NCBI GenBank assembly: GCA_036476315.1
Contig: JAZGBI010000090.1
Location: 1-45,478 of the forward strand
Length of the DNA stretch: 45,478 bases
Direction: 5' to 3'
From: Candidatus Neomarinimicrobiota bacterium
GTDB taxonomy: Bacteria; Fidelibacterota; Marinisomatia; Marinisomatales; S15-B10
Of the stretch, positions 15,164 to 23,302 are shown in pieces; position 1 is the first letter of the stretch; the number at the start of each line of letters is the position of its first letter. A program made the translations under genes and the position numbers. The notes under the pieces were generated by a model. That model was not told where the DNA came from and made no database searches. It worked only from the letters and a program-made list of their open reading frames with translations.

Positions 15164-15231
15164 CGCTGTAGCAGGTCCGGGCAAAAGCCTTGGTTTGCTT
15201 GTGGTGCGTGCATAATATTAACTGTTCATTG

Positions 15232-15422
15232 ACAGGTCGGTTTCGAGAGGGAAATCCGTGAAAATCGGGTACAGCCCCGCTACTGTGATCGCCTGGGAGC
15301 TTCCTCCGTTCAATACGGAGCCATTGCCCCGGAAGATTTAACCTGCCTCCTGGCAGACGGGATGAGAAGGTGAAAGACCTCCCGTGAGGCGTAAGTCAGG
15401 AAACCTGCGAAACCGCAATTCT
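15232..15422 (+). promoter_or_regulatory. Cobalamin riboswitch
   Basis: The leader carries the hallmark blocks of the AdoCbl/B12 class: GAGAGGGAAATCCGTGAAAA near 15245, TACAGCCCCGCTACTGTGA near 15270 and the B12 box AGTCAGGAAACCTGC at about 15394-15408. It ends about 33 bp before the ATG of the TonB-dependent receptor. Binding of cobalamin would repress receptor synthesis, the usual arrangement for btuB-type genes. Confidence 0.95.
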
Positions 15423-15454
15423 CGCCAAGACTTTCGAGGGAGAAGGAGAGAATC

Positions 15455-17542
15455 ATGAAAACCTACCCAAACATTTTCCTCTTAATTCTGTTCGTTCTAT
15501 GGTTTCCTGCCAGGGCCGTTCACGCCTCTGATTTCTTCATTGTGGGTCAAGTGACGGATCCCGATGGCAGTCCCATACCGTACGTGGAAGTATATTCCCC
15601 CGATCACGAGTTTGGAACCACGACAGACAGGGACGGTCGATTCATGCTGGAATACGAAGATGATGAAAGCGTACTCGTCATTCAGCACTCCGCTTTTGAA
15701 TCCGAGAGAATAGTGGTCAAAAGCTACCACGAGCGACCGCTGGAAATCATTCTTGAACCCAAAACCTACCACTTCGATCCGGTCATTGTGGAAGGGAATT
15801 TGTACGCCAGGGAGAATCTCAAGCTTCCGGTCAGTCACAGGTCGGTTCAGATCGACAAGTCCCCTAACTGGGGAAACAGCGTAGCCGAGAGGCTGGATCG
15901 CATGGGCGTCCAGATAAGGGACTACGGAGGATCGGCGGGACTGAAAACGGCGGGTTCCGCGACGGGTTATGCCGAACACATACTGGTGATGGTGGACAAC
16001 GTTCCCCTGAATTCCCCGCAAAACGGCGTTGTCGATCTCAGTTTTCTTCCAGCTGACCTATTCTCGCAAGGGGAATTCTACTTGGGTCACGGTTCATCTC
16101 TCTATGGTTCAAACGCTATGGGGGGAGTCCTCAATCTGATGACTGAGCGTCACGAACCGTCATACGTTCGAGTCAGATCAGGGCGGTTTGGGGAAAGAGG
16201 AGTCACCGGAAAGGTCCTGACCAGGATTGGTGCCGGCCGGATGTCCCTCTATGGAAATAAATACGAAAATGCAGGGGATTTCCGAGAAAATAACGACTTT
16301 GCCCAGGAAGCCTTTGGAGGCAGAGTTTTCTATCCCGTGGCCCGCCTGTGGAATGCTTCTTTGTTCGCGCTGACGAGCGCCATCAATCGGGGAATAGCCG
16401 GTTCAATTACCTTTCCATCGCCGGACGCACGCAAAGACAACATCGACAATATCTACATCGCGTCGGTACGGGGACTTTCTCCACTGGGACAATCTGAAGT
16501 CACTCTCGGAGCTACAGAATCTCGCGAACACTTCACGGATCCCGGCATATTCGTTGATTCCAAACACCTGGTCAACACCCAGAGGTTACGGGTCATTCAA
16601 CGGTTCCCTGAAACAGGATCCATCCAGAATACAGTCATCCTGGAAGCGGTAAAGGACAAGGTGGATAGCGATGACGCAGGTAAACATGAGAAATTCACAG
16701 GCGCACTGGGATTTCTCGGGCAACTTCGCTGGCGCCATTCCTTGCACCTTTATCCAAGCGTTCGTGCAGACTGGAATCAGGGTGAATCAAATCCTGTAAC
16801 TACGGGCAGCCTGGCACTGCACTGGTCTCCAAACTCCCCATTTATCAACTCCGTATCAATAAACGGAGGAACCAGTTATCGAAAGCCCACTTTCAATGAT
16901 CTGTATTGGGAGGATCCGTGGGGGTACTCCTCAGGGAATACGGAGCTGAAACCCGAGAGGGGGAGGTCAGCGGAAATTGCCGCTGACTTCAAACTGGGGC
17001 TCTCAAATCTTCTGAGGGTGAAAATAAGGGGATACCATTTCTTCAACGAAAACTTGATCCAGTGGATACCGGACGAGAATTGGGTATACACTCCCCAAAA
17101 CCTCTCTAAGGCCGAGTCCTTTGGTGGTTCAGCAACCCTCAACATCCGTCCCAAAGGCGTCCCGGTCACAGTTGAACTGGGAATGGAATGGAATAGGAGT
17201 CGGGTTCTTTCGAAGGGGGGGGATCATAATAAACGTCTGTTATACGTTCCCCCTATATTCCGATGGGGAGAGATTTCTTGGGAGATCAAGCCATTCTCAG
17301 TGAATCTAAGCTATCGCTACCTTGGACGGCGCCGATTCAGCTACCGTGAGGGTGGTTTTCTGGATTCCTATCAGCGGATTGACGCCGCTTTCAGAATCCG
17401 GGGACCGCAGCTCCTTGGGGTTCAGACGGTCGTGGACTTGGGTATGCGAAATATAGAAAACCGGGAGAACCAACAGTCTGTTTACGATTACCCCGAGCCA
17501 GGGCGCGCGACGTATGTCCGGCTATCTCTTGAGTTCAAGTGA
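15455..17542 (+). CDS. btuB: TonB-dependent receptor, probable cobalamin transporter
   Basis: 695 residues. Signal peptide (about 1-25, ending AVHA), then a carboxypeptidase-regulatory-like beta domain (about 28-110: VGQVTDPDGSPIPYVEVYSP), then a plug domain (about 120-230: HILVMVDNVPLNSP and GHGSSLYGSNAMGGVLNLMT), then a 22-strand-type barrel to a C-terminus ending in alternating aromatic residues (YVRLSLEFK). It imports a substrate across the outer membrane using TonB energy. The cobalamin riboswitch just upstream makes a B12 form the likely substrate. A strong ribosome site (GAGGGAGAAGGAG) precedes the ATG. No BtuFCD genes lie nearby. Confidence 0.92.
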   Translation: MKTYPNIFLLILFVLWFPARAVHASDFFIVGQVTDPDGSPIPYVEVYSPDHEFGTTTDRDGRFMLEYEDDESVLVIQHSAFESERIVVKSYHERPLEIILEPKTYHFDPVIVEGNLYARENLKLPVSHRSVQIDKSPNWGNSVAERLDRMGVQIRDYGGSAGLKTAGSATGYAEHILVMVDNVPLNSPQNGVVDLSFLPADLFSQGEFYLGHGSSLYGSNAMGGVLNLMTERHEPSYVRVRSGRFGERGVTGKVLTRIGAGRMSLYGNKYENAGDFRENNDFAQEAFGGRVFYPVARLWNASLFALTSAINRGIAGSITFPSPDARKDNIDNIYIASVRGLSPLGQSEVTLGATESREHFTDPGIFVDSKHLVNTQRLRVIQRFPETGSIQNTVILEAVKDKVDSDDAGKHEKFTGALGFLGQLRWRHSLHLYPSVRADWNQGESNPVTTGSLALHWSPNSPFINSVSINGGTSYRKPTFNDLYWEDPWGYSSGNTELKPERGRSAEIAADFKLGLSNLLRVKIRGYHFFNENLIQWIPDENWVYTPQNLSKAESFGGSATLNIRPKGVPVTVELGMEWNRSRVLSKGGDHNKRLLYVPPIFRWGEISWEIKPFSVNLSYRYLGRRRFSYREGGFLDSYQRIDAAFRIRGPQLLGVQTVVDLGMRNIENRENQQSVYDYPEPGRATYVRLSLEFK

Positions 17543-19124: not shown

Positions 19125-19628
19125 ATGCTTAAGATTCCAGTCTGGATCACATCCACGACACTGCTCTTATCTACCGCCGGTGCCCTAACCATACCGCGGG
19201 GCCAGGAAGATCTGAGCGTTGACAACGTGGAAGCAACGGATCTAAAGGGAAAGGCCTTTCGGGGAACGGCTTTACGGGGCAAGGTTGTGCTGGCAGACTT
19301 TTGGGCGAGCTGGTGTACCCCCTGCGTCAAGGCGTTTCCCGTTCTCAAACAGGTCAATGCTGACTATAAGGACCAGGGGTTTCAAGTCCTGGGGATCGCC
19401 GTCTACTCGGGAACCATCGAAGATGTGGAAAAAGTGGTGGACAAACATGGCCTCGACTACACGGTCGTGATAGGGGATGAAGATCTTATTGAGACGTTCG
19501 GAGTCATTGGCGTTCCCACCTACTTCCTGTTTGGCCGGGACGGACACCTGGCAAGAAAATATGTGGGGCAGTCCAAAGACTTCCACGAGCGGGTCCAGGC
19601 CCACATTCGTGAACTACTTGAAAAGTAA
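19125..19628 (+). CDS. TlpA/ResA-type exported thioredoxin-like protein
   Basis: 167 residues. Signal peptide or anchor at the N-terminus (VWITSTTLLLSTAGALT), then a TlpA-like thioredoxin fold with active site ADFWASWCTPCVKAFPVLKQ (CxxC near residues 66-69), GIAVYSG, and the cis-proline stretch GVIGVPTYFLFGRDG. It should act as a membrane-facing or periplasmic dithiol reductant. An AAGGAG-preceded gene starts only 10 bp after its stop, so it is almost certainly cotranscribed with the selenocysteine MerB-like gene and is a natural candidate to reduce it. ATG start with a GGAG site upstream. Confidence 0.88.
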   Translation: MLKIPVWITSTTLLLSTAGALTIPRGQEDLSVDNVEATDLKGKAFRGTALRGKVVLADFWASWCTPCVKAFPVLKQVNADYKDQGFQVLGIAVYSGTIEDVEKVVDKHGLDYTVVIGDEDLIETFGVIGVPTYFLFGRDGHLARKYVGQSKDFHERVQAHIRELLEK

Positions 19629-19638
19629 GGAGCCGAAG

Positions 19639-20490
19639 ATGAGTATCATGGGATTTTTCTTATTAGGCATGACGGTGTCACTGTCGCCGGGTCCTTCCCA
19701 GGATGTGGATTTCAAGGACTTACCGGAGGACGGGAAACGGATTGTCACATACCTGAAAAGTGATTGGAAAAAGAGATTTCGATCCACCACCATTGCCTTG
19801 GCCATGGAGAACCTCGGGATTCAGTCAGATGATGAACTGAGAATTAAAGTGGGTCAATACTTCAGGGATCATCCCGGCCTGATAAAGAATCTACGGTTCT
19901 GGGGGGCGAACAACTACATCCTGACGGATGAGGAAAAGTTGATCGCCAAGTTCTTGATCAATACCTATGAGTTCGAAGAACAAATTCCGGGCTTGAATGA
20001 AGCTGCCAGGGCTTTGGCAACGAGCGAAGAGAGGCTGAAAGGCCGTCTCGATTTCATGAGCAAGGCGGGACTCTTACAGGTATCCGGAGACGAAAAGCTG
20101 GGCTACCGCTTAGCCGAGGGCTTCCATCGGTGGGGAGGTCCTCTGCGGCATAATTTTCACACTGTTTATCTGGAGGGTGAAAAACCCTTCGGTGTATGGT
20201 GAGCAATCGATTTTCTCCTGCTGGTCAGCAGGGAGGGTTATGGTGGGAAAACGATAAGAATTGAAGATTCCTGTGCCCATTGTCATTTAAAGATTGCCCT
20301 TGAGGTTGAGGGGGGAAAGATCACTTCCCTTGACCCGGAAACCGTATGGATCCAGGAAGGGGGCGGGTGAACGGTGGATAATCTCTTCTGGTCAGAAGAC
20401 CACGTAAACCAGTGGCTGAACGAGTATCCCGACTACAGGGACATTCAACAGGTTCCCATCCGGGATTTCTGGGAGGACCTGAAGGAATGA
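19639..20490 (+). CDS. MerB-family (alkylmercury lyase-like) protein with two predicted selenocysteines
   Basis: Read through two in-frame TGAs, one frame of 284 codons gives a 283-residue protein. An N-terminal helical part (about 20-150, with a winged-helix-like RALATSEERLKGRLDFMSKAGLL segment) precedes the MerB core: RHNFHTVYLEGEKPFGVW-U188-AID191, then a CAHC pair (212-215), then EGGG-U244-TVDNLFWSEDHVNQW. U188 and D191 fall on catalytic Cys96 and Asp99 of E. coli MerB (WCALD), and U244 on Cys159 (SFCCHVHFFAS). MerB cleaves carbon-mercury bonds. The ATG follows AAGGAG and comes 10 bp after the TlpA gene. Gene callers would stop at 20202 and lose the active site. Each TGA is followed by a SECIS-like hairpin. 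Alternative, a pseudogene with two stops, is unlikely because both fall on invariant cysteines. The first residues are hydrophobic, perhaps a short signal. Substrate is inferred, not shown. Confidence 0.88.
20200..20235 (+). promoter_or_regulatory. SECIS-like element 1 (UGA codon 188)
   Basis: TGA at 20200-20202 is followed by 12 nt and then a stem of 8 pairs with one bulged G: CTCCTGCT (20215-20222), loop GGTC (20223-20226), AGCAGGGAG (20227-20235). The loop starts 20 nt after TGA, and the G and T in the loop match the bacterial SECIS rule known from E. coli fdhF (GCAGGTCTGC). Such a hairpin recruits SelB and Sec-tRNA. Confidence 0.85.
20368..20403 (+). promoter_or_regulatory. SECIS-like element 2 (UGA codon 244)
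   Basis: TGA at 20368-20370 is followed by a perfect 6-bp stem TCTTCT (20384-20389), loop GGTC (20390-20393), AGAAGA (20394-20399). A lower stem GTGG (20374-20377) / CCAC (20400-20403) can form across a 5' bulge. The loop begins 19 nt after TGA. The eight-base apex CTGGTCAG is identical to element 1. Confidence 0.85.
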
Positions 20491-22606: not shown

Positions 22607-23302
22607 ATGACAGATATAAGAACAGGGGTCACCGAGAAAATGATCACCGATTTTCTGGGTGCATTTCCGAATGAGTTTCTCAGCCTGAATGACAAAGAAC
22701 GCATGATCTCTGCCCAGATATACCGGCTTCTGACCGAAAGCAAGCCTGTCTCTATTGGGAAGGTTGCTGCTACCCTGGACATGCCGGATTCTGAGGTGGA
22801 GCCCGTTATTAAGTCGTGGCCGGGCGTGTTTTACGACAAGACGGGTTCGATTATCGGATATTGGGGATTAGCATTGTCTCAATTCGGCGACCACCGATTC
22901 AACGTGAATGGTCACACGTTGTATGCGTGGTGCGCATGGGACAGTCTCTTCATACCGCAAATCATCCAGCGGACAGCCGTGGTTACGTCTAAGGATGCGG
23001 CAACCGGACGTCCTATCCGCCTCACAGTGACACCGGAGAACGGCATTGCGGAAGTTGACCCGGAAAGCACCGTGATTTCGTTTATGATGCCGCCCAACGT
23101 TGAGGAAATACGCGCAGATGTAGTGACCAGTTTCTGCCACTACCTGCACTTTTTCAGTTCCTCAGACTCGGCTAGAGAGTGGATATCGAAGAGCGAGAAG
23201 AAAGACGAGATGTTGATCCTATCCCCTGAGGAAGCGAACGATATCGGATTACGGAAAAACCGACTCCAGTACCGGGAACTGCTAAAACCTCTTGAGGTTT
23301 AG
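22607..23302 (+). CDS. merB: Organomercurial lyase (alkylmercury lyase)
   Basis: 231 residues, matching E. coli MerB in length and layout. An N-terminal winged-helix-like part (SIGKVAATLDMPDSEVEPVI) is followed by the catalytic core: TLYAWCAWDSLFIPQ gives Cys109 and Asp112 (MerB Cys96, Asp99); TSFCHYLHFFSS gives Cys177 (MerB Cys159). The enzyme splits carbon-mercury bonds by protonolysis and releases Hg(II) in the cytoplasm. Ends normally with TAG. No merA, merT or merP is present in the window, so the released Hg(II) route is unclear. It is 2.1 kb from the selenocysteine homologue; the two are clearly different subfamilies. Confidence 0.92.
   Translation: MTDIRTGVTEKMITDFLGAFPNEFLSLNDKERMISAQIYRLLTESKPVSIGKVAATLDMPDSEVEPVIKSWPGVFYDKTGSIIGYWGLALSQFGDHRFNVNGHTLYAWCAWDSLFIPQIIQRTAVVTSKDAATGRPIRLTVTPENGIAEVDPESTVISFMMPPNVEEIRADVVTSFCHYLHFFSSSDSAREWISKSEKKDEMLILSPEEANDIGLRKNRLQYRELLKPLEV

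Follow-up and report, generated by a model that had tools for sequence, protein, structure and literature searches.

A MerB-like protein family with predicted selenocysteine at both catalytic cysteine positions, encoded beside a thioredoxin gene in two bacterial phyla

In the organomercurial lyase MerB, two thiolates together with Asp99 hold the mercury, and Hg(II) leaves by transfer to external thiols (PMC4525700); Cys96, Asp99, Cys117 and Cys159 make up the published four-residue signature of the enzyme (PMC8261052). A selenium-containing member of this superfamily has already been described, namely SaoL (NF040728), a MerB-like organometallic lyase selenoprotein with one selenocysteine (Sec) in a CU motif (PMC13188914), which is the nearest known relative of the protein analyzed here. 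SaoL is the sole MerB-like entry in a 2026 inventory of 119 prokaryotic selenoprotein (sub)families, where no double-Sec MerB is listed; the original prediction, whose author knew of no published protein of this kind, agrees in this with the open-access literature.

The window, that is, the entire stretch of 45,478 nucleotides analyzed here (contig JAZGBI010000090.1 of a Candidatus Neomarinimicrobiota bacterium), contains a MerB-like gene in which translation with TGA read as Sec (U) encounters just two TGAs before the stop, at codons 188 and 244 (Table 1). The original prediction described a frame of 284 codons; its coordinates, codon numbers and motifs stand, the one correction being that the 284 codons include the stop, itself a TGA. 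Directly after this terminal TGA comes a second one, and the stop has no GGUC hairpin behind it. Features that the original prediction did not mention are the probable export of the protein, its added N-terminal domain, the pairing with a thioredoxin gene, the ordinary MerB nearby and the existence of one-Sec relatives such as SaoL. A Shine-Dalgarno-like GGAG lies 5' of the ATG, which is separated by 10 nt from the end of the gene before. Given that the chance of a frame free of TAA and TAG behind the first TGA is about 5%, the single sequence proves little; the double selenoprotein reading is settled by the conservation of both TGAs in homologues and by the two SECIS hairpins.

Table 1. Features of the double-Sec locus and its surroundings in the window.
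Feature	Coordinates	Strand	Evidence or remarks
TlpA/ResA-like thioredoxin, WCTPC, N-terminal signal/anchor	19125..19628	+	Pfam Redoxin 1.5e-15, AhpC-TSA, Thioredoxin_8
Double-Sec MerB-like gene	19639..20490	+	283 aa, then TGA stop
UGA codon 188, predicted Sec at MerB Cys96 position (VW-U-AID)	20200..20202	+	alignments; TGA in 12/12 loci
Asp191, MerB Asp99 equivalent	20209..20211	+	alignments; invariant in double-Sec family alignment
SECIS hairpin 1	20216..20233	+	apical loop GGUC 20223-20226, 20 nt after UGA
Cys212, MerB Cys117 equivalent	20272..20274	+	alignments; invariant in double-Sec family alignment
UGA codon 244, predicted Sec at MerB Cys159 position (GGG-U-TVDNLFWSE)	20368..20370	+	TGA in 11/11 loci reaching it
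SECIS hairpin 2	20383..20400	+	apical loop GGUC 20390-20393, 19 nt after UGA
Ordinary Cys/Cys MerB (YAWCAWD, SFCHYLHFF)	22607..23302	+	Pfam MerB 2.5e-30; 2.1 kb downstream

Pfam, profile-profile and Foldseek comparisons place the window protein in the MerB superfamily; compared with MerB, it carries an extra domain at its N-terminus. Its score against the Pfam MerB family PF03243 is 29.1 bits (E 1.1e-6), above the gathering cut-off of 27; the homologues L027, L029 and L039 score 29.8-30.4 bits and the remaining members 25.2-25.9 bits, just under the cut-off. Profile-profile comparison with canonical MerBs of related genomes yielded an E-value of 3.7e-9. The placement of both UGAs on the catalytic cysteines of alkylmercury lyase, as originally proposed, was recovered by Pfam, by alignment to MerB2 (5c17) and by the profile-profile match, with U188 on the cysteine of WCA(L/W)D and U244 on that of SFC(C/H); the alignments to MerB2 and canonical MerBs and a PDB profile search equate U188, D191, C212 and U244 with Cys96, Asp99, Cys117 and Cys159, respectively. 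The literal signature of functional MerB therefore fails, both catalytic cysteines being read as Sec, with its four positions nonetheless occupied, Asp191 and Cys212 being present; the predicted exchange of Cys for Sec at both catalytic positions is a chemically homologous replacement. An AlphaFold2 model (mean pLDDT 83.9) searched against the PDB with Foldseek gave MerB structures as the best 11 matches, the sole ones with E <0.001. The TM-scores to these structures are low (about 0.3-0.48) and the rmsd is high, a pattern to be expected if the relative placement of the winged-helix and catalytic domains differs. The middle region resembles winged helices, and residues about 28-95 form a further helical region that is conserved but matches no family. 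The similarity to MerB is distant (25-30 bits in Pfam, ~15-20% identity), with a long stem in the tree, and the NCBIfam MerB models NF009710 (cut-off 193) and NF033555 (cut-off 200) each give only 21 bits.

The window protein thus shares with MerB (PF03243; PDB 3f0o, 3f0p and 1s6l; MerB2 5c17) the catalytic-domain fold, the four signature positions and a winged helix before the catalytic domain, but differs from it in the predicted Sec at both catalytic cysteines, in probable export (MerB is cytoplasmic) and in sequence, identity being at most about 20%. With SaoL, it has in common the superfamily and Sec at an active-site cysteine, but it has two Sec, no CU motif, an extra N-terminal domain, probable export and a thioredoxin partner; assignment to SaoL was rejected at 25.3 bits versus an equivalog cut-off of 140. 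No model of NCBIfam 20 (June 2026) is satisfied by the window protein, and the double-Sec, probably exported MerB-like protein seems to represent a new selenoprotein family.

Evidence of conservation comes from homologues in at least twelve genomes of two bacterial phyla, the window's included. A scan of 84,980 species genomes produced L018, from an Acidobacteria-labelled MAG (52% identity), with both TGAs. Comparison of the window protein with 245 genomes of its own phylum added six homologues, five with two TGAs and a sixth whose contig ends after the first, and comparison with 396 genomes of the phylum of L018 added four, in G246, G262, G276 and G491, each with two TGAs. Altogether, the 11 homologues are 45-53% identical to the window protein, and apart from the copy cut by the contig end all have the double TGA; the same TGAs recur in independent assemblies. 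When the ten complete frames were aligned by codon, all ten had TGA at both positions and at no other (the L018 copy has a one-base frameshift shortly before its first UGA, but the regions around its two UGAs were retained). The sequence behind each UGA remains under purifying selection, with dN/dS of about 0.09, 0.31 and 0.05 between L040 and L041. The MerB relatives, that is, canonical MerBs, carry Cys at both positions, whereas within the family no Cys version was found in the 245 + 396 genomes of the two phyla. No relative was found on plasmids; none was found on viral contigs either, with a method that back-translates Cys and so misses UGA forms. Two weak matches, L087 and L088, were discarded as noise.

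According to the published bSECIS model, a small apical loop with G in its first two positions lies 16-37 nt after the UGA (PMC13188914), and both sites of the double-Sec gene conform to it. At all 23 UGA sites (12 first and 11 second), a hairpin with a GGUC or GUUC loop 19-20 nt downstream can form, and at most, not all, of them it is also the lowest-energy structure predicted for the longer flank; in the window copy of hairpin 2 the outermost pair is broken. At the first site, 98.6% of cells are paired, three pairs show two-sided changes, and the covariation score is 0.270 versus 0.131 for shuffled data (0/500), the compensatory changes being UA to CG (three sequences), CG to UA and GC to CG. 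At the second site, the corresponding values are 98.7% and 0.234 versus 0.060 (0/500), and the closing pair appears as UA, AU or CG, with a Trp, Ser or Arg codon changing together with a Ser codon. Slid controls paired in 17-75% of cells at site 1 and 47-64% at site 2, compared with ~99% for the real structure. Over the whole window, both strands, there are three TGA+GGUC hairpins with a stem of at least 5, two of them those of the double-Sec gene. Rfam at gathering thresholds reported no bacterial SECIS in the window.

The machinery for Sec decoding, which the original prediction had named as a check, is encoded in the window's genome in full: selA (524 bits) lies directly upstream of selB, which is interrupted by the end of contig C30 and resumes at the beginning of C94; the tRNA-Sec (selC) scores 62 bits; and SelD (L045, G000:C73, minus strand) itself contains Sec (SHGSGUACKLG), with a GGUC-loop hairpin after its UGA. 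The tRNA-Sec exceeded the Rfam threshold in seven of the eight double-Sec carriers counted (G000, G189-G193, G197 and G245), the exception being G192 at 46 versus 47. On the computational evidence, recoding of both UGAs is close to certain, and insertion of Sec at both codon 188 and codon 244 is predicted with very little doubt.

Examination of the gene neighborhoods shows a TlpA/ResA-like thioredoxin gene directly upstream of the double-Sec gene in 12/12 loci, always with a WCxPC motif; it is the first gene of a two-gene unit with the double-Sec gene, and the other neighbors are not conserved between groups. The window's thioredoxin matches the NCBIfam ResA subfamily at 7e-23, under its cut-off. 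Most of the double-Sec proteins have an apparent signal peptide or lipobox, as judged by eye from the N-termini, the lipobox being seen in three of them (L026, L029 and L030); the signal peptide of the window protein is weak, the least clear of the family, with no basic n-region at its ATG. These N-termini point to export or membrane anchoring as the most likely fate of the product, and export of the double-Sec protein is, in our assessment, very probable. We know of no established exported MerB. Farther upstream in the window, an ordinary cobalamin riboswitch (15209-15426) directly precedes a TonB-dependent receptor gene (15455-17542).

A link to mercury is suggested by the company that these genes keep. 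The ordinary MerB of the window matches the NCBIfam MerB models at 6e-49, under cut-off (166 and 156 bits versus 193 and 200), and a MerB gene is found within ~3 kb of the double-Sec gene in four loci of two phyla (the window, L038, L040 and L041). A separate MerB is present in 6/7 double-Sec genomes of the window's phylum versus 6/238 others (Fisher p 2e-8) and in 3/5 versus 25/391 in the phylum of L018 (p 0.003), p-values that are inflated by the phylogenetic relatedness of the compared genomes, with the MerB of G193 counted here being of the single-Sec type. Two carriers, G197 and G491, show no second MerB. The window's genome also encodes an authentic MerA (544 bits); for HgcA, the mercury methylation protein, it yielded one match under cut-off, and a scan for the cap-helix motif found nothing. 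Five loci (L076, L079, L082, L054 and L055) encode divergent MerB homologues that lack Asp at the Asp99 position, with CCA(L/V)(V/I)A compared to WCA(W/L)D; the first three lie near the double-Sec gene.

Further Sec-containing branches of MerB-like proteins were detected. One is also double-Sec, represented by L083 (G504), L084 (G625), L085 (G349), L086 (G448) and G366:C12, with the motifs AAUAEDA ... YURKSVFFWSEEH. Like the window family, it has UGA at both catalytic positions, a GGUC SECIS at site 2 and FFWSEEH; unlike it, it has AAUAEDA, no signal peptide and an atypical first SECIS, and forms a separate clade. Another branch, which is common (L051-L053, L063-L071, L073, L074, L077 and L081), has a single UGA at the Cys159 position (FTUxTMLFFRSEEH); it resembles the window family in its GGUC-type SECIS (GUUC in two members), in the position of this Sec and in FxSEEH, and differs from it in having Cys at the Cys96 position and neither a signal peptide nor the extra N-terminal domain. 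Because its members reach only ~43 bits against the SaoL model (cut-off 140), this branch is probably another unlisted selenoprotein family. In the tree, each Sec branch is a single group and the backbone is unresolved, so that one or two origins of the first-site Sec are both possible. A different UGA-containing gene, in L094, L095 (the gene in L049), L096, L098 and L099, encodes a lipoamide-dehydrogenase/MerA-like flavoprotein in which UGA takes the place of the first redox cysteine (GGTUVNEGCIPTK); it adjoins an ordinary merB in four of its five genomes, and no GGUC hairpin was found at the usual distance after the UGA.

Selenolates stay deprotonated at neutral pH and have a higher affinity for Hg than thiolates. 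With all four MerB positions conserved and selenium in place of sulfur, the same chemistry carried out with selenolates would be the simplest reading. SelB and Sec-tRNA, on the computational evidence, would recode each UGA at its own SECIS hairpin; outside the cytoplasm, an organomercurial or Hg(II) would then be held between the two selenolates, and the C-Hg bond would be protonated with the help of Asp191, as MerB does with thiolates. There is virtually no glutathione pool outside the cytoplasm, so that the invariant thioredoxin could naturally serve as reductant or Hg acceptor: exported, it would keep both selenols reduced and/or take Hg(II) off them, the job of glutathione or MerA in the cytoplasm. 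Product release would be the hard step, given tight Se-Hg binding. The protein likely acts on mercury or an organometal, while the chances that it is a true C-Hg lyase appear evenly balanced. The explanation as a whole, an exported double selenoprotein of the MerB superfamily acting on mercury with a thioredoxin partner, strikes us as quite likely. The best hypothesis on function is that the protein acts as an organomercurial lyase outside the cytoplasm; its most specific form, an extracytoplasmic diselenolate lyase that is recharged by thioredoxin and demethylates mercury outside the cell membrane, is plausible, at somewhat short of even chances.

Several other explanations deserve consideration, some of which concern the reading of the UGAs. 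The frame in the window, taken alone, would have the look of a MAG frame broken by two stops, with a first part of 187 codons, and could signify a pseudogene or an assembly error; this is refuted for practical purposes by the TGA conservation, with 12 independent loci sharing the same TGAs, covarying SECIS at both, purifying selection downstream and the sel machinery pointing the same way, and we give it hardly any credence. A changed genetic code or general read-through would equally leave the frame open, whatever residue TGA stood for. The long genes of the window, however, stay open when translated with table 11, in which TGA is a stop, TGA terminates the double-Sec gene itself, and the SECIS hairpins are specific to SelB; a recoded code was accordingly rejected, and a non-Sec reading is just as improbable as a pseudogene.

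The alternatives on function carry more weight. The MerB fold might serve a double selenoprotein that is not a lyase, such as a secreted selenenyl or diselenide redox protein or a trap for Hg(II) or other metals, reduced by the thioredoxin. The sole invariant operon partner is indeed a thioredoxin and no mercury gene, two facing Sec could pair as a diselenide, a redox role is presumed for most selenoproteins (review), and the overall sequence is far from MerB. Against this, the equivalents of Asp99 and Cys117 are invariant, which redox activity alone would not need, and there is the linkage to MerB genes; on balance, we regard a non-lyase as unlikely, although it is the stronger of the two functional rivals. 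The other, a MerB-like lyase for a different organometal or organometalloid (e.g., organoarsenic, organotin or organolead), could appeal to SaoL, the nearest named selenoprotein, being called an organometallic lyase and to the many genomes with single-Sec MerB-like proteins that show no Cys/Cys MerB. The window protein scores only 25 bits against the SaoL cut-off of 140, however, and the co-occurrence and neighborhood of MerB, along with the true merA in the window's genome, speak for mercury, making a different substrate less likely still.

Selenium binds mercury exceptionally tightly. If the reading as an exported double selenoprotein acting on mercury is true, evolution has put selenium in place of both metal ligands in a mercury-cleaving enzyme, and has done so in two phyla. 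The S/S, S/Se and Se/Se active sites within one superfamily offer a natural comparison for the use of selenium in organometal chemistry, and the mercury chemistry of the double-Sec family is now testable. Since normal gene calling splits double-Sec genes at the UGA, the potential for methylmercury demethylation in environmental genomes may be under-counted; if the extracytoplasmic lyase is real, it would be a demethylation route that surveys built on cysteine MerB have missed.
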